From contig NZ_CP099546.1 in assembly GCF_023973145.1 (NCBI RefSeq), positions 3,100,001-3,164,000 on the forward strand: 64,000 nt of DNA, read 5' to 3'. The notes beneath the pieces were generated by a model that did not search any database, was not told where the DNA came from, and saw only the letters and a program-made list of their open reading frames with translations. The position numbers were made by a program, and so were the translations under genes. The stretch comes from Natronosalvus vescus (GTDB lineage: Archaea > Halobacteriota > Halobacteria > Halobacteriales > Natrialbaceae). Positions 21,644 through 32,665 of the stretch are shown here, piece after piece; the first letter of the stretch is position 1; each line of letters opens with the position of its first letter.

Positions 21644-22171
21644 GTGCCGAACGAAATCACGCCAACTCTCCTTTGCTCTCTATCACGCCCTTTTCGTTAC
21701 TTCGAACGAACACTGGTCGTCGAATTCCCACAGCGGGACGACGTCGGTCGTTGCGTACTGACCGACCGTCGTCCCGTGTTCCTGAAACGCTATGGGGTCG
21801 GTACAATTGATCTCGAGCACGTTCAGGGACGTTCGCTTCGATACCGTGCACCACAGCACACTGGTGCCAATTTTGCTGTGATCCGTCGAGCAGTGGGCAC
21901 GTATGTTCTCTTGAGCGCTACGCAAGGATCCAGTATTATCTCCGAAGCGCGTGAGACGATTGATTCGATGATCGACGCAGGCTGGTACTGTGCGCCAGAG
22001 TTGGACACAACGCTAATCCACACACTCGAATCCCTCGAGCAATACCGACGGTGTATCGCGGTAGCTGGCCGAAACCAGCACCGGGAGGGCACACGGCAGT
22101 TCGTCATAGGTGCAGCAGGTCGAACGTACGCTGTGATGGTGATCGGGCGATTCACTCCCGATGTGAACGGT
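21644..22171 (+). pseudogene. Possible truncated hypothetical gene
   Basis: From GTG 21644 an open frame with haloarchaeal-style codons runs about 175 codons (VGRCVLTDRRPVFLKRYGVG, QHTGANFAVIRRAVGTYVL, GAAGRTYAVMVIGRFTPDVN). It then continues without a stop into the antisense strand of the creatininase-family gene. A real gene ending this way is unusual; its 3' part was probably lost by deletion. I recognise no family and cannot exclude chance. Confidence 0.35.
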
Positions 22172-22946
22172 CGGAAACTGCTGTTGTGGGCATCAGCTCG
22201 TCAAAATCCTGCTTGTGCATCCACTCACACAGCTGAACCAGCTGGTCACACGCAGCGTCGAATAGTCGTTCACCCTTTGCTTTCGAGGCGTCTGTCGGGT
22301 CGCCGAAACTACCGGTTTCCGAATTCCCAATCGCATCGTAGTACGTTCGTGCACCGTTCTGATGCGTTTGAACGTCAGCAAGGTCGACACACCCGGTCTC
22401 TCTGGCCGCCTCGAGCTCTCCCTCTCTGACGTTCTCCGTGAGATACCACACCATCGACGTCTCCTTCGGCCCCGCGTGAGGACCGTTCTGCTCGAACAGT
22501 TCCGTCACTAGCGCTGGAATGCTCTCGTCCCACATCCACTCGATTGCGTACGCGATTTCATCTTCGTACAATCGACGACCAACCTCACGCAGGTGTGGGA
22601 CGTTCCCGCCGTGGGCGTTCACGTAGACGATGCGATCGATACCGTGAGCGGTGAGGTTCCTGGAAAAACTTTCGACGTACGTGCGGAACGCGGACGCATC
22701 GACCCACATCGTCCCCGGAAACTGACGGTGATGAGAGCTGACGCCGATAGTGATGGTGGGAGTGCACAGATAGCCCGCTCGACTGGCCGCTTCTCGAGCA
22801 AGCCCTTCGGCGATCACGTGATCGGTTCCTTCGGGGAGGTGCAGTCCGTGTTGCTCCGTCGAACCGATCGGGACGATCGCCACTGACTTTTCGTCGAAAT
22901 ACGACTCGAGTTCGGGCCACGTGTGATCGGCAAGATACATGTCCAT
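22152..22946 (-). CDS. Creatininase-family amidohydrolase
   Basis: 264 residues from ATG 22946 (MDMYLADHTWPELE); an upstream ATG at 23003 would add 19 residues. Metal-binding motifs of the family are present: IVPIGSTEQHGLHLPEGTDH (Glu, His, Asp), then SSHHRQFPGTMWV, VNAHGGNVPHL and the later Glu. Relatives hydrolyse creatinine, formamidopyrimidines (ArfB) or cyclic amides. It lies at the downstream end of the peptide-degrading cluster, about 100 bases after the amphi-Trp gene, so an amide substrate related to the cluster is possible but unproven. Confidence 0.9.
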   Translation of the reverse strand: MDMYLADHTWPELESYFDEKSVAIVPIGSTEQHGLHLPEGTDHVIAEGLAREAASRAGYLCTPTITIGVSSHHRQFPGTMWVDASAFRTYVESFSRNLTAHGIDRIVYVNAHGGNVPHLREVGRRLYEDEIAYAIEWMWDESIPALVTELFEQNGPHAGPKETSMVWYLTENVREGELEAARETGCVDLADVQTHQNGARTYYDAIGNSETGSFGDPTDASKAKGERLFDAACDQLVQLCEWMHKQDFDELMPTTAVSDRSHRE

Positions 22947-23048
22947 CTGTGTACGATCCGAATCGAGAAAAATATCGGGTCGTGGTCGGTTCGTGGTGTC
23001 CATGGATTCTCGGACACAGCCTCGTTCGTGTAGAGGCGAACGAGACAG

Positions 23049-23351
23049 TCAGTCGAGTTCTTCGTCCGCCGACACCGCTTCGCCGTCTTTCATCGGCCAC
23101 TCGAGTTCGATTTCTAGCTCTGCCTCGTCGTCGCCGACCTCGTACTCGACCTCGAGTTCGAAGCGTTCCGGGATCGCCACGGTGAACCCGTTCTCCCCTT
23201 CGATGTCGATCGTTCCGTCTTCGACTCCGGCAGCGACTTCTCGCAGGATAGCCGCGCCCTCCGCTCGACTCATCACCCGCTCTCCTTCGCGCTCCGTCTC
23301 ATCGGCTGTCGATTCCGTTTCGGTATCGGCTTCGTGCTCGTCGTCTGCCAT
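23049..23351 (-). CDS. Amphi-Trp domain protein
   Basis: 100 residues: an acidic disordered N terminus, a short helix (SRAEGAAILREVAAGVEDG), then a beta-rich module ending in LEIELEWPMKD. This matches the small amphi-Trp domain of haloarchaeal proteins, named for its amphipathic strand with a late conserved Trp. Function unknown; it is cytoplasmic by sequence. It sits between the D-aminoacylase-like and creatininase-family genes. Confidence 0.85.
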   Translation of the reverse strand: MADDEHEADTETESTADETEREGERVMSRAEGAAILREVAAGVEDGTIDIEGENGFTVAIPERFELEVEYEVGDDEAELEIELEWPMKDGEAVSADEELD

Positions 23352-23444
23352 ACCTGGCCTACCACGACCGTCGGTAAAATATACGGGCCTTCAAATCGAC
23401 GCGGTTTGGACGGCAGCGATTTCCTCGAGCCCTCCGGATCAGCG

Positions 23445-25040
23445 CTATCGAAGTGTCGTTCCCGGTCGCTCGCCCGTATGTTCACCGTTCCTGACGACGA
23501 ACTGGCCGTTGACGAGCACGTGGGGGATTCCGTCCGGATAGACGGCCGGGTCGACGAAGGATCCACCCTGTCCAACGGTCTCGGGATCGAACACGGTCAC
23601 GTCCGCCCACGAACCCGGTTTCAATAAGCCGCGGTTCTCGAGCCCCAGTCGCGATGCTGGCTGCCCGGTCATTTTGAACACGGCCTGCTCGATCGAGAGC
23701 AGGTTCCGTTCACGAACGTAGTGACCGAGCACTCGTGGGAAAGTGCCATAGCTTCGAGGATGGGGAACGCCGTCACCCAGGGGGCCTTCGGGAACCATCG
23801 CGTTGCCATCGCTCCCGATCATGGTGAGGTCGTGACTCATGACCTCCTCGACGTCCGTCTCGTCCAGACAGAAGTGAATGTGCTTGGTTCGACACCGATC
23901 CTGAATCAGCGTGTCGATCGCGATATCGACGGCCGCCCGCGTTTCGTCTTCCCGGTCGGCGAGTTCGCCGACGGTCTTTCCCTGGAGGTGTTCGAGAGCC
24001 GGCGTTCGGACGTTCGTCAGGAGGATGTCGTCCCAGGAGTCGGTGTTCGATTCGAGTTCCCGACGAATACGTTCGCGGGTGGCCTCGTCCTGTAAGCGCT
24101 CGAGGAGCGCCTCCGTCCCACCTTCGCGAGCCCACGTCGGAACCCGGGCGCTCAGACTCGTCGAGGAGGCGGTGTACGGATATTGCTCACACTGGATGTC
24201 GATGCCGTCGCGGTTTCGGGCGAGTTCCATCCGACGCAGCGTGTATCGAACTTTCCCCCAGTTGTCCCGACCGACGGCCTTGTGGTGGGACACCTGTACC
24301 GGAACGTCGGCACGGTCACCGATCTCGATGGCCTCCTCGAGCGCCGAAAAGATGTCGTCGCCCTCGCTTCGCATGTGGGTGGTGTACAGCTTGTCGTGGT
24401 CGGCGACGACCGATGCGAGTTCGACGAGTTCTTCGGTGTCGGCGAACGCCCCGGGCGTGTATATCAGCCCCGTCGACAGCCCAACGGCACCGTCGGACAG
24501 CGCCTCGTCGACGATCGCCTTCATCTCCTCGAGTTCGTCCGCCGTCGGTGCCCGATCTTCGTACCCAAGCACGGGAATGCGGGCGTTTTCGTGCCCAATC
24601 AGCGAGCCGACGTTCACCGAAATTCCGCCCTCGTGTTCGAGGTGATCGAGGTACTCACCCATCGTCGTCCAGGCGGTCGTATCGACAGCCTCCCCGACGC
24701 CGCGGTAGGCGAAGCTCTCTGCAACGTCCTCGGCTGCCGCCCCGTGTTTCGGTGCCGCACTCGTTCCACAGTTTCCCAGGATCTCGAGCGTAACGCCCTG
24801 TCGAACTTTGCTGTGAGCGTCCCGATTCGCCGGGAGGGTGTAATCGGAGTGCGTGTGGATGTCGATGAATCCGGGTGCGACGACGAGTCCAGATGCGTCG
24901 AGTTCGGTATCACCGGTTCCCGAAACGGTGCCCACGGATTCGATCCGTCCGTCCCGAATCGCCACATCACCGTCGAACCAGGGTGCGCCGGTTCCATCGA
25001 CGACTCGAGCGCCCCGGAATATCACGTCGTGTGCTGACAT
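23445..25040 (-). CDS. N-acyl-D-amino-acid deacylase family amidohydrolase
   Basis: 531 residues from ATG 25040 (MSAHDVIFRGARVVDG). This is the TIM-barrel amidohydrolase of the D-aminoacylase family: the N-terminal beta domain is GARVVDGTGAPWFDGDVAIRDGRIESVG, and metal ligands appear in FIDIHTHSDYTL, the Cys in LGNCGTSAAP, TTHMRSEGD and VSHHKAVG, with the late Asp in MIGSDGNAM. Known members release D-amino acids from N-acyl forms or cleave dipeptides with D-residues. Here it follows the dipeptide epimerase by 146 bases and could release the D-residue of modified peptides. The exact substrate is not shown. Confidence 0.9.
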   Translation of the reverse strand: MSAHDVIFRGARVVDGTGAPWFDGDVAIRDGRIESVGTVSGTGDTELDASGLVVAPGFIDIHTHSDYTLPANRDAHSKVRQGVTLEILGNCGTSAAPKHGAAAEDVAESFAYRGVGEAVDTTAWTTMGEYLDHLEHEGGISVNVGSLIGHENARIPVLGYEDRAPTADELEEMKAIVDEALSDGAVGLSTGLIYTPGAFADTEELVELASVVADHDKLYTTHMRSEGDDIFSALEEAIEIGDRADVPVQVSHHKAVGRDNWGKVRYTLRRMELARNRDGIDIQCEQYPYTASSTSLSARVPTWAREGGTEALLERLQDEATRERIRRELESNTDSWDDILLTNVRTPALEHLQGKTVGELADREDETRAAVDIAIDTLIQDRCRTKHIHFCLDETDVEEVMSHDLTMIGSDGNAMVPEGPLGDGVPHPRSYGTFPRVLGHYVRERNLLSIEQAVFKMTGQPASRLGLENRGLLKPGSWADVTVFDPETVGQGGSFVDPAVYPDGIPHVLVNGQFVVRNGEHTGERPGTTLR

Positions 25041-25186
25041 ACCCCTATGCAATTCACGCCGGTCGTAAAAATCCCTCCCTCGTACGCAAGGGTCGCGGCC
25101 GAACGGACGGTTCATTGGGAACGGTGTTTCGATACCCTGTCGATCGCTCCTCGATCCCTCTTGGAGAAAACGTCACCCAGGTTGAC

Positions 25187-26263
25187 TCACTCCGGCGTAT
25201 CCGGAACCATGCTGGGATCCGGAACGATCCCGTGACCGGGGCCACGCGTCTCGAGCGTCGGCCCGACAGTGACGTCGGCGACGTTCCGTTCGAACGAGAG
25301 GTTCCCGTCCAGATCGACGTACGAAAAGCCCCCGAGACCCGCCACGAGGTGGGCGCTCGCGTGCAACCCGAGCGCACTCTCGAGCATACAGCCGATCATC
25401 ACCTCGAGGTTGGCCCCGCGGGCGATTTCGGCGATCGCTGCACCGTCTGTCAGTCCCGACTTCGCCGCTTTGATATTGATGACGTCCGCGGCTCCCGACG
25501 CGGCAATACGGTGAGCATCAGTGGGCGTGAAGACGGCCTCGTCGGCTGCAACGGGGATCCGAACCGCCTCCGTCACCCGCTTGAGTCCCCGAACGTCGTC
25601 GCGGTGAACCGGCTGTTCGAGGAGCGTGAGGTCGAGACCTCGAGTCCGTGCTTCGTGAGCAAACTGGATGGCCTCCTTGGGCTGCCATCCCTGGTTTGCA
25701 TCGACTTTGACCCCTGCGTTCGGGGCCACCTCCCGTACGGCGGCCACTCGCTCGATATCCGCCGATACATCGCCGCCAACTTTCACTTTGAGCTCGTCGA
25801 ATCCTGCCTCGAGGGCTGATTCGGCTTCGGCGGCGGCCGTATCGGGGTCGACGATCGACACCGTCAGGTCAGTGCGAATCGGCCCGGGCGACCCACCGAA
25901 ACACTCTGCGAGAGAAATATCACGCTCACGACAGTAGGCGTCGTAAAGCGCCGTCTCGAGGGCAAGTCGTGCCGAGACAGCGCCGGGAAGCGCTGCCTCG
26001 AGATCGGTCACGATCGAGCGCCGATTTCGCAGGTCTCGCCCCTCCAGCACCGAGACACCGGCTTTCGCCGTTTCGATCGCGCTGTCGATCGTTTCGCCAG
26101 TGATCGGCTCGAGCGGCGCGGCTTCTCCCCACCCGACGGTACCCGAGTCGGTCTCGACCCTGACGAGGAGGTTCTCCGCCTCGTGTTTCGTTCCGAGCGA
26201 AATCTCGAAGGGATCGGTCAACGGGACGTCGAGGCGGTACACCTCGATTCGCTCGACGATCAT
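25187..26263 (-). CDS. Dipeptide epimerase (L-Ala-D/L-Glu epimerase type)
   Basis: 358 residues in the enolase superfamily. The catalytic pair is Lys161 in the KxK motif (LKVKVGG) and Lys268 (NIKAAKSG). Magnesium ligands are Asp188 (KVDANQGW), Glu216 (LEQPV) and Asp241 (AADEAVF). The DLDG motif (Asp317, Asp319) is the hallmark by which dipeptide epimerases hold the peptide amino group, separating them from muconate or succinylbenzoate enzymes. The bacterial enzyme converts L-Ala-D-Glu from murein to L-Ala-L-Glu. Its ATG overlaps the NlpC/P60 stop by four bases (ATGA), so the two are translated together. Confidence 0.92.
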   Translation of the reverse strand: MIVERIEVYRLDVPLTDPFEISLGTKHEAENLLVRVETDSGTVGWGEAAPLEPITGETIDSAIETAKAGVSVLEGRDLRNRRSIVTDLEAALPGAVSARLALETALYDAYCRERDISLAECFGGSPGPIRTDLTVSIVDPDTAAAEAESALEAGFDELKVKVGGDVSADIERVAAVREVAPNAGVKVDANQGWQPKEAIQFAHEARTRGLDLTLLEQPVHRDDVRGLKRVTEAVRIPVAADEAVFTPTDAHRIAASGAADVINIKAAKSGLTDGAAIAEIARGANLEVMIGCMLESALGLHASAHLVAGLGGFSYVDLDGNLSFERNVADVTVGPTLETRGPGHGIVPDPSMVPDTPE

Positions 26264-27375
26264 CGAGCCCCCTCCGCGGGGAGGAACCGCTTCATCGCCG
26301 TGACCGACTCCGCGAGCGACTCGACGTACTCGGCGTGAGACGGGTCGAGGCTGTTTACCGTCACTTGTTCGGCGCTTCCGTAGGCGTGAACGAACTCGGA
26401 GCCGCCGAGGCTGATCGCGACGTGCCCGGGGAAGAACAGGAGATCGCCGGGTTCGAGATTGTCCTGCGAGACGTCCGTGCCGAGGTCACGCTGCTGATCC
26501 GCATCGCGTGGTACGGTGACGCCAACGGACGCGTACGCGACCCAGACCAGGCCAGAGCAGTCGATCCCTTCGATAGTCATCCCGCCCCACTCGTAGGGCG
26601 TCCTGAGGAACTGTCTGGCGACGGCGACGACGTCGGCTCCGGTTCCCGTCGACGTCCGTTCGTGGATGGCCGTCTCTGGCAGCGTCGCCCGAACCCCGGT
26701 TCGAAACGAGACGGTTACCTCCTCGTCGTCGCGTGACTCGAGATGGCAGTCGACGCCGGCCGGGACAGTCTCCGGAGTGGCATTCGACTGGTGGGGGGTC
26801 GTCGGTGCCGTGACGACGCCGTCTGGCCGCCACTCGCTCTGATTCGTTACGTCCACACCGTTCCTCGTCCCCCTCGGATCCGTCGTGTCCACAGCGTCCA
26901 CCGCCGTTCCCGGATCCGTCACGTCCACATCGTCCGCCGCCACTCTCGGATCCGTCAACGCCGTCGCTTCGACCCACCCGAGGTACCCACCGGGCGTCCG
27001 AACGCGCCGCCAGCCATCTCTCGAGTCGTAGGCCGTAAGCTCGGCACCGTACAGCACCTGCGTGACCTGTTCGGCGTCCTCGTGCGGCTCGCCACGGACG
27101 GCACTGACGTGCAGATCGGTCGTCATCGCTTCGCCGGTTCCCTCGAGTACCGAGAGCGAATCGCGTACGGTTCGACCGGTGGATAGTTGGCGCAGTTCCT
27201 CGAGGAGACTCTCTTTAGTTCGATCGGTCTGTACGGTTCCAGCAAGCACGATTCCCGGTGTCTCGTCGTCGCCCTCATCCTCCGCCTCGACGGTGACCTC
27301 GAAACAAACCACACGATCGTCGGGAGCGTGGACGGTCTTCACCCGCTGGACGGCGAGTTCTTCAACGGAGGTCAT
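26260..27375 (-). CDS. SH3b-NlpC/P60 peptidase (YkfC-like)
   Basis: 371 residues. An N-terminal helical/beta part precedes an SH3b domain (about 85-140; VLYGAELTAYDSRDGWRRVRTPGGYLGWVE), a repetitive linker (143-180), a second SH3b-like piece (about 205-240) and a C-terminal NlpC/P60 domain. The catalytic triad is Cys273 (IDCSGLVW), His318 (GHVAI) and His330 (FVHAY), with the same His-His spacing as YkfC. No signal peptide, so it acts inside the cell. YkfC enzymes cut the gamma-D-Glu to diaminopimelate bond of murein peptides. It overlaps the decarboxylase-like gene upstream by 14 bases and the epimerase gene downstream by 4. Confidence 0.9.
   Translation of the reverse strand: MTSVEELAVQRVKTVHAPDDRVVCFEVTVEAEDEGDDETPGIVLAGTVQTDRTKESLLEELRQLSTGRTVRDSLSVLEGTGEAMTTDLHVSAVRGEPHEDAEQVTQVLYGAELTAYDSRDGWRRVRTPGGYLGWVEATALTDPRVAADDVDVTDPGTAVDAVDTTDPRGTRNGVDVTNQSEWRPDGVVTAPTTPHQSNATPETVPAGVDCHLESRDDEEVTVSFRTGVRATLPETAIHERTSTGTGADVVAVARQFLRTPYEWGGMTIEGIDCSGLVWVAYASVGVTVPRDADQQRDLGTDVSQDNLEPGDLLFFPGHVAISLGGSEFVHAYGSAEQVTVNSLDPSHAEYVESLAESVTAMKRFLPAEGAR
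26875..26956. repeat. 36-base tandem repeat in the NlpC/P60 linker
   Basis: CGGATCCGTC recurs at 26875, 26911 and 26947, exactly 36 bases apart, with similar spacer sequence. It encodes 12-residue units (DVTDPG, DTTDPRG) in the linker between the two SH3b regions. Confidence 0.75.
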
Positions 27376-28630
27376 CGGGCACCTCCCCTTTGGCGAACAC
27401 GTCCGCGGGTTTCTCGGGTCGGCGAATCACGTCGATCTCGCCGTCCGATCGACACAGCAACACGGGTGGCTTCGGCTGGGCGTTCGTGTGTGACGCACTT
27501 CCCAGCGAGTACGCACCGATCCGATCGATTGCGAGGAGGTCGTCCCGCTCGAGCGGCGGCAGCGGGACGTCTTCGGCGATCACGTCGCCGGTGTAACAGA
27601 GCGGCCCTGCGACGTCGTAGTGCTCGCTTGACTCGCCATCGGTGAGGGCGTAAATCGGATACGGCCAGTACGACGAGACGGTGTTCGTACCGGCGTCGAG
27701 CACGGCAAACGACGCGTGCGGCGTCTCCTTGATTACGCCGACGGTCGACACCAGCGTCCCGGCGTTGCCGACCAACCGTCGCCCGGGTTCGAGATACAGT
27801 GTCGGGAGCGGGAGGTCGAACGACCGCGCGGTCTCGCGAACCGTCGTCGCAATCTCCGTCACAATCGCGTCGGTGTCGGGAACGGGGCCGTCGTACGGAA
27901 CCGGAAACCCGCCACCCAGATCGAGGATGTCGATTTCGACACCGAGTTCGTCCCGAATCTCGGCCGCAAACGAGAGCATCTCGCGGGCGGCAACGCCGTA
28001 GGGTTCGACACCCTTGATCTGACTCCCGATGTGCAACTGTACGCCTGCGAGTTCGACTGCCGACGACGATGCCGCCCGTTCGGCGACGGCCATCGCTCGA
28101 CCGGAGTCGATATCGAGACCGAATTTCGACTCCCGGGTCGCCGTCGCAACCTCTGGGTGGGTTGGCACTTCCATCGCTGGATTGCCCCGAACGAGCACCT
28201 TCGGTTGCATCTCCGTCCGTTCGGCGGCGTCGATCAGCCGCTCGAGCTCCATCGCGTTGTCCACCAGGAGATGTTCGACACCCATCTCGAGCGCTCGTTC
28301 GACGTCTTCGGGACGGCGGTTCATCCCCGTCAACAGAAGTTCCCGAGGCTCGTACCCAGCGGAACGTGCAGCCGATAGTTCGCCGGTGGCGTACACTTCG
28401 GCGTGACAACCTTCGTCCCGAAGCACCGAGAGGATTCCCGGGTTGTAGTTCGCTTTCACGGCGAAGTGAACCACTGAATCCGGATACTGCTCGTCGAGTG
28501 CCCGCCGTACCGTTCGATAGTTCCGCCTGATGTCGTCCTCGAAGAAGACGTAAACCGGCGTTCCGTACGGAGAGAGGAGGTCGGATTCGATCCCGAGGAG
28601 ACGCTCTCTCCGCGCCTCAATATCCATCAC
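27362..28630 (-). CDS. Diaminopimelate-decarboxylase-like PLP enzyme (fold type III)
   Basis: 422 residues. The PLP lysine is Lys59 in HFAVKANYNPG. HIGSQ, the glycine-rich phosphate loop LGGGFPVPYDG and EPGRRLVGNAG follow; the C-terminal active-site Cys is in GPLCYTGD. The fold and motifs are those of LysA-type decarboxylases, which turn meso-diaminopimelate into L-lysine; relatives act on ornithine or arginine. Genetic coupling to an NlpC/P60 peptidase and dipeptide epimerase supports diaminopimelate as substrate, but the biosynthetic lysA may lie elsewhere and this could be a specialised paralogue. Confidence 0.87.
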   Translation of the reverse strand: MMDIEARRERLLGIESDLLSPYGTPVYVFFEDDIRRNYRTVRRALDEQYPDSVVHFAVKANYNPGILSVLRDEGCHAEVYATGELSAARSAGYEPRELLLTGMNRRPEDVERALEMGVEHLLVDNAMELERLIDAAERTEMQPKVLVRGNPAMEVPTHPEVATATRESKFGLDIDSGRAMAVAERAASSSAVELAGVQLHIGSQIKGVEPYGVAAREMLSFAAEIRDELGVEIDILDLGGGFPVPYDGPVPDTDAIVTEIATTVRETARSFDLPLPTLYLEPGRRLVGNAGTLVSTVGVIKETPHASFAVLDAGTNTVSSYWPYPIYALTDGESSEHYDVAGPLCYTGDVIAEDVPLPPLERDDLLAIDRIGAYSLGSASHTNAQPKPPVLLCRSDGEIDVIRRPEKPADVFAKGEVPDDLR

Positions 28631-28804
28631 TATCGGACGTGCGTACTGGAGAGGGAAAACACGCCCCCTCGCATACTAGGCGGCGCTTCTCGAGGACGTT
28701 CCGCCCTGGGAAGGGATGTACGGCTCTCGCAGGGGCCGTACCGAAGTTTCCACCGCCCCCAAACGGTCGAGGTGGCGATCGGCGGCGCGTCGATACACCC
28801 GCCT

Positions 28805-30352
28805 CTATCCCTCGAGACGGCCGTCCAGTGCGCCGAACCCGTCCGGTGGCCGGCGATGGCGTGCCGCCTGTTCGTAGGCGTACGCGAGTTCGAGTAAGCG
28901 CGGTTCCCCGAACGGCCGCCCCAGCAATTCGACGCCGACGGGGAGGCCGCCATCGGTAAACCCGGCTGGCACGACGATGGCGGGGAGGCCGGTGTGAGCC
29001 GAGAGCTCACAGTTCAGTTCCTCGAAGGGCTGGTGCTCGGGAATCGCCACCGGTGGAATCGTCGACGGCGGATACAGCAGGGCATCTACCTCGTGAGTGG
29101 CCATTCGGCCGAGCGTGTCGATGCGGAGTTCTCGTCGCCGCTCGAGCCGCCGCACGTACGCCGGATCGTCGTCGACCGTTTCGGGGTCGGTCTCGAGAAT
29201 CGGCTCCCCCTCCAGTCGCGAGCTGACCGCCGGTGCGACCGCTCCGGAGTCGACGATCGCCTCCAGCGAGTCGTACGGGGCGTCCGCCCCGAGCCCGTCC
29301 AGATACCGATTGAGGTCACGTTTGAACTCGAAACTGATGACGCGGGCAGAACCCAGAAACGACGTGTCGACGATGTCGACGGGGTCGACGATCGTTGCCC
29401 CGGCGCGCTCCATCTCGTCGATCGCGGTGTCGAGTACGTCAGTGACCGACTGGGCTGCCTCACTGGGCGCACTTCCTTCTGCTTGCAGTCCGAACAGTTC
29501 CCGCACGACGCCGATGCGCGCACTCTCGAGTCCCTGTTCGTCGAGGTGTGAGACATACCCGTCGTCCGGGACGTTTCCGACACCCGTGGCCGTAACGGGA
29601 TCTGCCGGATCGTAGCCGGCCATCACGTCCAGCATCCGAGCAGTGTCCGTGACCGTACGGGTGATCGGCCCGGCCGTATCCTGGGTCTCGCTCAACGGGA
29701 TCATTCCCGTTCGGCTGACCAGTCCCCTGGTGGGTCGCAAGCCGACCAAGTTGTTGAACGCGGGCGGCGAACGAACCGACGAACAGGTATCCGATCCGGT
29801 TCCGATCGCCCCGAGGTTCGCCGCGACGGCCGCTGCCGTCCCACCGCTCGATCCCGACGGACGCCTCTCGAGCGCGTAGGCGTTCCGTGTCTCGCCACCG
29901 AGTGAACTGATCGTGTCGACACCGTAGGCGAACTCCTGCAGGTTCGCCTTCGCCAGAATAATCCCGCCAGCGGCACGGAGGGCCTCAACGAGAAACGCGT
30001 CCGCCGACGGGATCGATTCGGCGAGCGTCACCGACCCCGCCGTCGTCGGCATGTCGTGGGTGTCCTGGTTGTCTTTGAGAACGATCGGAACACCGTGGAG
30101 CGGGCCGACGAAGCCGTCGCGTTCGAACGCTGCGTCGAGTTCGCTGGCCCGCGCCTCGGCGTTCGGGTTGATCGTCAAAATCGAGTTCAGGTCGTCGTCG
30201 TACGCGTCGATTCGGTCGAGATACCGGGCTACGAGCGACTCGGCTGTCAGCGTTCCCCGCTCGAAGGCTGCGTGGATATCCTCGACGGTCGGGTCGACGA
30301 GGCTGAACGAATTGAGGTCGGCATCGGAATCGGGATCGGATACTGGGGGCAT
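28805..30352 (-). CDS. Amidase-signature family hydrolase
   Basis: 515 residues from ATG 30352 (MPPVSDPDSDADLN). The amidase signature is complete: Lys in VPIVLKDNQDT, the cis-Ser region RRPSGSSGGTAAAVAANLGA and the nucleophile block GSDTCSSVRSPPAF. The Ser-cisSer-Lys triad hydrolyses carboxamides. Many annotated gatA-like enzymes of this type are generic amidases, and no gatB/gatC partners are present. It begins the minus-strand cluster, and a TATA-like TACTATA lies in the divergent promoter region. Confidence 0.9.
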   Translation of the reverse strand: MPPVSDPDSDADLNSFSLVDPTVEDIHAAFERGTLTAESLVARYLDRIDAYDDDLNSILTINPNAEARASELDAAFERDGFVGPLHGVPIVLKDNQDTHDMPTTAGSVTLAESIPSADAFLVEALRAAGGIILAKANLQEFAYGVDTISSLGGETRNAYALERRPSGSSGGTAAAVAANLGAIGTGSDTCSSVRSPPAFNNLVGLRPTRGLVSRTGMIPLSETQDTAGPITRTVTDTARMLDVMAGYDPADPVTATGVGNVPDDGYVSHLDEQGLESARIGVVRELFGLQAEGSAPSEAAQSVTDVLDTAIDEMERAGATIVDPVDIVDTSFLGSARVISFEFKRDLNRYLDGLGADAPYDSLEAIVDSGAVAPAVSSRLEGEPILETDPETVDDDPAYVRRLERRRELRIDTLGRMATHEVDALLYPPSTIPPVAIPEHQPFEELNCELSAHTGLPAIVVPAGFTDGGLPVGVELLGRPFGEPRLLELAYAYEQAARHRRPPDGFGALDGRLEG

Positions 30353-30708: not shown

Positions 30709-31596
30709 ATGCCAGACCACGACACCGACACGCTCGTTACGGCCGACTGGGTCGAAGATCACCTCGAGGAATTCCAGTCCGACGACCCCGAGTACCGACT
30801 GCTGGAAGTCAACAACCCGACCGTCACGGCAGATTCGGAGTACACGCCCTACGAAGAGGGACACATCCCGGGCGCGATCTTCTTTCACTGGAAGGAGGAT
30901 CTCAGCGACCCGACGACCCGTGACCTCCTCGATAAAGAGGCGTTCGAGCAACTGAACGCCGAGGCAGGGATCACCGAGGATTCGACGGTGGTTCTCTACG
31001 GCGGCGGGCGTGTCCCCAATTGGTTCGCGCTGTTCGCCTACTGGGAGTACACGTACTACGGCCACGAGGACGTCCGCGTCATCGACGGCGGGAAACCGTA
31101 CTGGATCGAACACGACTACCCGCTGACGACCGACGAACCCGACTTTTCGACCCACGAATACCACGCTCGCGGCCCCTTCGAGCGCATCCGTGCCTACCAG
31201 AACGACGTCGAGCAGGCGATCGACTCCGGCGTTCCGCTGGTCGACGTGCGCTCGCCCGAGGAGTTTACCGGCGAGGTCATCGCTCCCGAAGGCCTCCAGG
31301 AGACGGCCCAGCGTGGCGGGCACATTCCCGGGGCGAAAAACGTGCCGACGACGTCGGTGTTGGACGACGACGGAACGTTCAAATCGCCCGACGAGCTCCG
31401 GGCGCTGTACGACGACGTCGGCATCACCGAAGATCAGTCCGTGATCACCTACTGCCGGGTCGGCGAGCGGTCGTCTATCGAGTGGTACGTCCTCCGCAAA
31501 CTCCTCGGGTTCGAGGACGTCGAGAACTACGACGGCTCCTGGACGGAGTGGGGCAACCGCATCCGGGCACCGATTGAGACCGGGACAGCCGAGTAG
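30709..31596 (+). CDS. Two-domain rhodanese (thiosulfate sulfurtransferase)
   Basis: 295 residues with two rhodanese domains. The N-terminal one (about 8-140) is inactive (LYGGGRVPNW replaces the Cys loop); the C-terminal one carries Cys249 in the loop TYCRVGERSS. The GHIPGAIFFHW and GGHIPGAKNVP motifs mark each domain. The enzyme moves sulfane sulfur from thiosulfate or mercaptopyruvate to an acceptor. It starts a group of forward genes divergent from the amidase cluster. Confidence 0.93.
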   Translation: MPDHDTDTLVTADWVEDHLEEFQSDDPEYRLLEVNNPTVTADSEYTPYEEGHIPGAIFFHWKEDLSDPTTRDLLDKEAFEQLNAEAGITEDSTVVLYGGGRVPNWFALFAYWEYTYYGHEDVRVIDGGKPYWIEHDYPLTTDEPDFSTHEYHARGPFERIRAYQNDVEQAIDSGVPLVDVRSPEEFTGEVIAPEGLQETAQRGGHIPGAKNVPTTSVLDDDGTFKSPDELRALYDDVGITEDQSVITYCRVGERSSIEWYVLRKLLGFEDVENYDGSWTEWGNRIRAPIETGTAE

Positions 31597-31722
31597 CGAC
31601 GTCTCACCCGTCTCGAGTCGGAAACCCGAGTCCAAAGCCGATTCCGTTCTCGAGCTACGTCCCCGATCGATCCCGTGCAACATCGATTCGACGCGGTACG
31701 GATACCTGCCGCCAACGCGGTC

Positions 31723-31729
31723 ATTTAAG
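31723..31729 (+). promoter_or_regulatory. TATA-like box of the DapA-family gene
   Basis: ATTTAAG lies 25-31 bases before ATG 31754; leaderless promoter. Confidence 0.45.
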
Positions 31730-31753
31730 CCGCTCCCGGTTTCACTCTCGAGT

Positions 31754-32665
31754 ATGGCGAATCACGATCCCGGAACGGACGATCCGCTCTCGATTCACGG
31801 CGTCGTCCCACCCACGGTTACGGCATTTCACGACGACGAGTCGGTCGACTACGAAACGACGGCCGCCCACGCCCGGTTCGTCGTCGACGGGGGCACTCAC
31901 GGCGTCTTCCCGCTCGGGACGAACGGCGAGTTCCCGCTGCTGACGCCCGACGAGCGGAAGGGTGTCGTCGAGGCCGTCGTCGACGAAATCGACGGCGACG
32001 TCCCCGTGATTGCGGGCGTCGGTGCCCCGAGTACTCGAGAGACCGTCGACCACGCTACGCACGCGGAATCCGTTGGTGCAGACGGCCTGGTTGTCGTCAC
32101 CCCCTACTACTATCCCCTCGATCACGACGCGTACCTCGAGCACTATCGTCGGGTCGCGGAGGCGACGTCGCTACCGATCTACATCTACCACATCCCGAGC
32201 AAGACGGGGAATTCGATCCCCCGAACGACTCTCGACGAACTCGTCGAGATCGACTCGGTCGTCGGTCTCAAAGACTCGAGCAAGGACGTGCCGTGGCTCG
32301 CCCAGTCGATCGACGCCCACCCCGAGATGACGTTCCTCGCTGGATCGGACTCGCTGCTCTTTACCGGCCTCGAGATCGGTTGTTCCGGGATGGTGAGCGC
32401 GGTGGCGAACGTCTTCCCGGAACTGGTCGTCGATCTGTACGAGGCCTACGATGAGGGTGACGAAGCACGGGCTCGGGCCCTCCAGAGCCGCGTGTACGAT
32501 GTCCGCGACGCGCTCAAAGTCGGCGGTGCGTACATGTCCGGGGTGAAGACTGCACTCCAGTTGCGCGGGTTCGACGCCGGGCCGCTTCGCAGTCCCCTCC
32601 GGCTCAAAGACGAGGCAAGCGCGGCCGAACTCGAGGCCGAACTCGAGGCGCTCGAGCTGCTGTAG
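31754..32665 (+). CDS. DapA-family aldolase (dihydrodipicolinate synthase or KDG aldolase type)
   Basis: 303 residues from ATG 31754. A TIM barrel with the Schiff-base lysine Lys173 in VVGLKDSSKD, the GTNGEFPLLTPDER block that binds the pyruvate carboxylate, and the Tyr in YIYHIPS. All catalytic features of class I pyruvate aldolases are present. The family includes DapA (lysine and diaminopimelate synthesis), keto-deoxygluconate aldolases and N-acetylneuraminate lyases; these cannot be told apart from motifs alone. Proximity to a diaminopimelate-decarboxylase-like gene is suggestive, but it stands in its own transcription unit. Confidence 0.88.
   Translation: MANHDPGTDDPLSIHGVVPPTVTAFHDDESVDYETTAAHARFVVDGGTHGVFPLGTNGEFPLLTPDERKGVVEAVVDEIDGDVPVIAGVGAPSTRETVDHATHAESVGADGLVVVTPYYYPLDHDAYLEHYRRVAEATSLPIYIYHIPSKTGNSIPRTTLDELVEIDSVVGLKDSSKDVPWLAQSIDAHPEMTFLAGSDSLLFTGLEIGCSGMVSAVANVFPELVVDLYEAYDEGDEARARALQSRVYDVRDALKVGGAYMSGVKTALQLRGFDAGPLRSPLRLKDEASAAELEAELEALELL

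Follow-up and report, generated by a model that had tools for sequence, protein, structure and literature searches.

A probable module for murein-peptide catabolism in haloarchaea and its doubtful lysine step

Introduction

Why would an archaeon without murein keep, side by side on one strand, relatives of the enzymes with which Bacillus subtilis takes murein peptides apart? The question is raised by a locus of Natronosalvus vescus (assembly GCF_023973145.1, contig NZ_CP099546.1). The window is the whole 64,000-nucleotide stretch analysed here, positions 3100001-3164000 of this one-contig, 3.84 Mb haloarchaeal genome. In B. subtilis, ykfA-D adjoins dppB-E (PMC2954226). The results below support an archaeal system of the ykf-dpp type and its murein reading; its lysine step is doubtful. 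The core of decarboxylase, NlpC and epimerase, together with a deacylase and an amidase, probably represents the cytoplasmic remnant of a haloarchaeal module that feeds on stem peptides from bacterial murein; we infer all of its reactions and their order. Such a module provides a concrete, testable gene set for how murein-free archaea could feed on debris of bacterial walls in brines.

The locus

The genes of the locus, in transcription order, are as follows.

28805..30352, minus strand: amidase-signature enzyme (PF01425, 2.9e-94); closest solved relative, peptide amidase 1m21
27362..28630, minus strand: LysA-like PLP decarboxylase of fold type III with an altered distal substrate site (Orn/DAP/Arg decarboxylase, PF02784 and PF00278; TIGR01048)
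26260..27375, minus strand: YkfC/DPP VI-type NlpC/P60 endopeptidase (SH3 and NLPC_P60, 1.6e-23)
25187..26263, minus strand: enolase-superfamily enzyme resembling L-Ala-D/L-Glu epimerase or N-acetyl-D-Glu racemase (MR_MLE)
23445..25040, minus strand: amidohydrolase of the N-acyl-D-amino-acid deacylase family (Amidohydro_3)
23049..23351, minus strand: amphi-Trp protein (Amphi-Trp Pfam match)
22152..23003, minus strand: creatininase-family amidohydrolase (creatininase Pfam match)

All seven reading frames are open, their family matches passed the cut-offs of a Pfam profile search, and codon-usage gene calling (Python) returned the same seven genes; with these lines in agreement, the gene set and order of the first-pass annotation are real. 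Its two overlaps are also correct by coordinates, one of 14 bases between the decarboxylase (27362-28630) and NlpC (26260-27375) genes and one of ATGA at 26260-26263 between NlpC and epimerase. The decarboxylase probably starts at the ATG at 28627. A promoter and terminator scan gave matches at chance level, archaeal promoters lying outside the scan's coverage. Next to the cluster, the other strand encodes a DapA-superfamily aldolase (31574-32665, plus strand; 190 bits against a dapA cut-off of 206), a neighbourhood that is not kept in relatives.

The amidase has peptide amidase (1m21/5ac3, 287 bits) as its top PDB matches, and one relative, Natronorubrum texcoconense, has a 75% identical homolog within its cluster. 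The deacylase matches D-aminoacylase 1m7j (314 bits) and N-acyl-D-glutamate deacylase 3gip (303 bits); homologs at 79-82% stand at the cluster in four relatives, and the gene is kept next to the module in Natrialbaceae. The creatininase and amphi-Trp genes, at first counted into the cluster, fall outside the conserved module when relatives' neighbourhoods are compared. Only distant copies of the creatininase occur near a few relatives' clusters, and the association of amphi-Trp with the module is not conserved among the mapped neighbourhoods. Both were rejected as pathway parts on this ground: the creatininase is probably a bystander and the amphi-Trp protein is one.

Conservation among haloarchaea

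Within 391 haloarchaeal genomes, all of one class, NlpC relatives occur in 28, a count that excludes four weak matches near E = 1e-3. Peptidase S13 and the window-type decarboxylase (at least 60% identity to the window copy) are each found in 15 of the 391, always in NlpC-containing genomes and in 14 cases together; 13 NlpC-containing genomes have no cluster-type decarboxylase and 13 have no S13. Co-occurrence over genomes is strong for S13 with NlpC, decarboxylase with NlpC, and S13 with decarboxylase (Fisher p = 8e-20, 8e-20 and 1e-23, kinship being handled at genus level only). At that level S13 and decarboxylase occupy the identical 9 of 86 genera, and the genomes with NlpC, S13 and decarboxylase span four family-level groups. 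Characterised members of peptidase S13 are D-Ala-D-Ala carboxypeptidases, as are the closest solved relatives of the cluster S13, in which KTG(T) is kept. A contig scan gave the haloarchaeal genera Natrialba, Natronorubrum, Halorussus, Haladaptatus, Haloprofundus, Halolamina, Halobacterium, Halocatena and Halorubrum and, beyond haloarchaea, Zixibacteria, Gemmatimonadetes and Clostridia.

Neighbourhoods in relatives were mapped by tblastn with 24 reference proteins and their families named by Pfam. Gene order, whose conservation had been put forward as a check, is kept outside this genome. The Natrialbaceae arrangement, with local variation, includes SBP, two permeases, two ATPases, S13, a divergent HTH_10 regulator, LYSA, NLPC, EPI, a PF00144 beta-lactamase-fold hydrolase (S12) and, in some cases, a D-aminoacylase. 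In three other family-level groups the parts recur in a different order, and the loci there also include NLPC-DgcN-EPI, an S9 peptidase and an enzyme of the PF13354 beta-lactamase fold. Natrialba hulunbeirensis and Haladaptatus are examples of carriers of the full cluster. Clusters typically carry a Tat-lipoprotein Dpp/Opp transporter, with a Dpp transporter beside the cluster in most relatives that have the decarboxylase, and often beta-lactamase-fold hydrolases, M55 D-aminopeptidase (in 9 of the mapped haloarchaeal loci and at least 11 bacterial ones) or D-aminoacylase. N-termini, read by eye, display a Tat-lipobox at the SBP start and no signal peptide on NlpC, S13, the PF13354 enzyme or S9. 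Among bacteria, Clostridia (Bacillota) have EPI-transporter-BLA2-NLPC clusters, and a Bipolaricaulota contig (L198:6392-10415) has S13, a canonical LysA and a YkfC-like NlpC in a row. A literature search, largely confined to papers free of subscription, returned no report of an NlpC/S13/LysA cluster in haloarchaea.

The window genome itself has a reduced version of the module, without S13, a dedicated transporter or beta-lactamase-fold partners. An LD-carboxypeptidase and a peptide transporter, listed as missing by the first-pass annotation, are indeed absent from the 64-kb window, and neither an S13 nor a detectable BLA2 or S12 homolog is present in the N. vescus genome. The best match to the cluster-type permease in this genome is only 50% identical; the best-matching transporter maps to 1.39 Mb, where its neighbours, judged by sequence, include no obvious murein genes. 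The single S66 peptidase, at 614844 and 2.5 Mb from the cluster, was considered as the missing part together with a Dpp transporter near it (614-628 kb). This candidate was dropped because S66 occurs in 30 of 40 haloarchaea, NlpC-minus genomes included, and the transporter resembles the cluster type at only 31-40%. Lacking S13, BLA2, S12 and a close permease, the window module is possibly degenerate or devoted to another substrate; either its gaps are filled by other enzymes and transporters, or it is being lost from this genome.

A YkfC-type peptidase

NlpC combines its catalytic domain with two SH3b-like domains and an additional domain at the N-terminus. Its AlphaFold2 model (pLDDT 89.7) has as best Foldseek matches DPP VI (3pvq, 4e-20) and then YkfC (3h41, 5e-17), at about 21-24% identity. 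Cys273, His318 and His330, the residues listed earlier, are invariant in 27 haloarchaeal homologs and correspond to Cys238, His291 and His303 of BcYkfC. In the 3h41 alignment, where chain numbering plus 22 gives the published YkfC numbering (Cys216 + 22 = Cys238), Tyr118 corresponds to Y131, Tyr226 to Y261, Trp228 to W263, Asp237 to D272, Cys238 to C273, Ser239 to S274, Arg255 to R290, Asp256 to D291, His291 to H318 and His303 to H330; all ten NlpC residues are invariant in the 27 homologs. The substrate-site residues among them are D291, Y131, Y261, W263, D272 and S274. In BcYkfC, Tyr226, Trp228, Asp237 and Ser239 are among the residues that bind gamma-D-Glu, and a YkfC-type site needs a free N-terminal L-Ala (PMC2954226). 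Like DPP VI, NlpC has Ala at position 257. Since every YkfC substrate-site residue is kept, the predicted substrate is an L-Ala-gamma-D-Glu peptide with a free N-terminus. As already annotated, NlpC has no signal peptide by reading of its N-terminus. Compared with YkfC/DPP VI (family C40), NlpC shares the SH3b plus NlpC fold and differs in its additional N-terminal domain. That domain (residues 1-80, about 80 in all; window 27140-27375, minus strand) has an alpha-beta-beta-alpha-beta order, a conserved APDxRVxxFDV stretch, a topology that recalls BON domains, and no Pfam match.

Proposed pathway and comparison with ykf-dpp

Co-occurring and co-localised S13, transporter and M55, the lack of signal peptides, the Bacillota equivalents and the YkfC residues together favour a role in which stem peptides of murein are imported and broken down in the cytoplasm, as first proposed for this locus; the presence of a separate lysA also agrees with it. 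Where the module is complete, peptide import would fall to a Tat-exported lipoprotein with a Dpp/Opp ABC transporter, and degradation would follow in the cytoplasm, as suggested by enzymes without signal peptides next to an SBP with a Tat-lipobox. D-Ala would be trimmed by cytoplasmic S13, M55 and beta-lactamase-fold enzymes, the YkfC-like NlpC would separate L-Ala-gamma-D-Glu from the diamino acid, and the D-Glu part would be made usable by an epimerase or racemase, with DgcN in some species. For the LysA-like decarboxylase, free DAP is the less likely substrate: the enzyme would attack the D-centre of diaminopimelate, most probably with the gamma-D-Glu acyl group still in place, or would use another D-amino acid.

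The system shares with B. subtilis ykfABCD-dpp the adjacency of a YkfC-type NlpC and a YkfB-type epimerase and the cytoplasmic location of the enzymes and, in haloarchaeal relatives, the Dpp-type transporter and M55 D-aminopeptidase. Unlike it, the host is an archaeon without murein, S13 and a LysA-like decarboxylase are added, and S66 (YkfA) is unlinked. The window genome departs further, with no S13, no Dpp transporter beside its ykfBC equivalents and no linked S66.

The epimerase and alternative pathways

The closest PDB match of the epimerase is B. subtilis YkfB (1jpm, 257 bits), and the Lys/Lys pair, the Asp, Glu, Asp metal site and the DxD motif are present. The DLDG motif, earlier taken as the hallmark of a dipeptide epimerase, is indeed there; it has no discriminating value and was discarded as proof, being found equally in DgcN-linked D-Glu racemases. 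NCBIfam scores are alike for the window clade and the DgcN-linked enzymes, and the window enzyme reaches neither NF041118 (L-Ala-D/L-Glu epimerase; 278 bits against a cut-off of 500) nor NF042940 (DgcA; 185 against 400). In a tree the window clade (7 rows, support 100/99) falls together with the DgcN-linked enzymes of haloarchaea (26 rows, 97/94). Its seven members are always linked to NlpC and LysA, with no DgcN in their neighbourhoods. L-Ala-D-Glu epimerase and N-acetyl-D-Glu racemase are both candidate activities of the window enzyme, and the dipeptide epimerase is only weakly preferred.

The main alternative for the pathway as a whole is salvage of D-glutamate instead of murein tripeptide use, with a DgcA-like N-acetyl-D-Glu racemase, DgcN encoded elsewhere and NlpC releasing gamma-D-Glu peptides from mixed sources. 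DgcN (DUF1611) lies near a related epimerase in 19 loci, mostly adjacent, and in five genomes the pair is part of the murein cluster; in the window genome DgcN stands with an S9 peptidase and a further epimerase, 58% identical to the window enzyme, at about 148-154 kb (L113:7040-12629). Halophilic archaea reportedly use DgcN and DgcA in a D-Glu pathway (Yu et al. 2023, cited in PMC12363236), and the cluster would tie wall-peptide use to that pathway. Against this stand the window-type epimerase clade, with no DgcN nearby and always linked to NlpC and LysA, and YkfB as the best PDB relative of the window enzyme; S13 and LysA would be left unexplained. D-Glu salvage is possible, though on this evidence unlikely. 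Far less probable is turnover of the cell's own poly-gamma-glutamate or glutaminylglycan, the alternative offered by the first-pass annotation. Polymers of this type are known from some Natrialbales, and NlpC/P60 enzymes can cleave gamma-D-Glu bonds. The polymer would hold no DAP or D-Ala to account for S13, M55 and a LysA relative, and the enzymes look cytoplasmic; the absence of PgsB/CapB (no TIGR04012 match in this genome, with a positive B. subtilis control) and the L-Ala site of NlpC argue against it. An antibacterial or lytic role, in which NlpC would attack the walls of bacteria, is equally remote. Some archaea do secrete peptidoglycan hydrolases that kill bacteria (PMC12352652), yet NlpC, S13 and the other enzymes carry no signal peptides, a peptide importer is linked to the cluster in relatives, and the requirement for a free N-terminal L-Ala makes intact wall an unlikely substrate.

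The DgcN/epimerase/S9 group at 148-154 kb resembles the D-Glu part of the murein clusters of other species.

The LysA-like decarboxylase

Returning to murein-peptide catabolism as the preferred reading, its doubtful lysine step concerns the decarboxylase. The enzyme passes the TIGR01048 (LysA) cut-off (317.8 against 297.9 bits) and keeps the PLP lysine and the EPGR motif. Its AF2 model (pLDDT 90.4) has 1tuf/1twi as the best Foldseek match, with M. jannaschii DAPDC as closest structure (TM 0.90). In T. maritima DAPDC the distal carboxylate of the substrate is bound by Arg249 and Arg285 and the distal amine by Glu315 (PMC8277567). In all cluster copies R285 is replaced by Ser320, E315 by Tyr346 and Y351 by Thr382 (Thermotoga numbering), and Arg249 is kept as R284. 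Canonical distal-site motifs are present in the biosynthetic LysA of this genome and in two bacterial LysAs beside NlpC. That biosynthetic lysA lies at 2.50 Mb in a dapB-dapD-lysA-dapF-dapE-like operon, named by sequence resemblance and a haloarchaeal operon in PMC10433800. The cluster decarboxylase is thus not the only lysA of the organism, a possibility raised at the outset, and in a tree it falls in a clade apart from biosynthetic LysA (support 100/100). Loss of the distal Arg and Glu makes free DAP a doubtful substrate, and the earlier proposal that free DAP is decarboxylated to lysine loses ground accordingly.

An ordinary DAP decarboxylase with relaxed binding, yielding lysine from released DAP, is nevertheless a sizeable possibility, short of probable. 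The TIGR01048 score, the M. jannaschii match and the canonical LysA on two bacterial contigs with NlpC favour it, and most E315 mutants of the Thermotoga enzyme retain some DAP activity (PMC8277567). Set against it are the separate clade and the change of all three residues in every cluster copy while the biosynthetic copy is intact. LysA and the cluster enzyme have fold, PLP lysine, EPGR motif and TIGR01048 score in common; the latter differs in its distal carboxylate- and amine-binding residues, its clade and its place outside the dap operon. A precedent for altered specificity is the N-citrylornithine decarboxylase FigC/FslC, in which the equivalent two positions are changed and FigC decarboxylates side-chain-acylated ornithine (PMC7857480). 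The fold is common to both and the sequence similarity only distant (80 bits); FigC/FslC have substitutions at the DAP-binding Arg and at the acidic residue next to the catalytic Cys, and the side-chain amine of their substrate is acylated. In murein peptides, mDAP is acylated by gamma-D-Glu at its L-amine and has its reacting D-centre free. Peptide-bound DAP would therefore fit the cluster decarboxylase and is our favoured guess. A fuller version, in which the D-centre carboxyl is taken off DAP within the peptide, turning L-Ala-gamma-D-Glu-mDAP into a lysine-type peptide before the NlpC cut in a dedicated archaeal wall-eating pathway, is tentative and, taken in all its parts, rather unlikely. 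Without the usual substrate-binding residues the cluster 'LysA' may have a new activity, and a family of archaeal 'LysA' annotations is exposed whose stated substrate is probably wrong.

Relatives of the cluster decarboxylase at about 45% identity occur in two NlpC-minus haloarchaea (L132:9053-10306, L133:7903-9174 and L134:8785-10065). Near them are PabA/PabB-, asparagine synthase-, AMP ligase- and DapF-like genes, named from N-terminal sequence, and these PabA/PabB-linked loci are possibly unstudied natural-product clusters.
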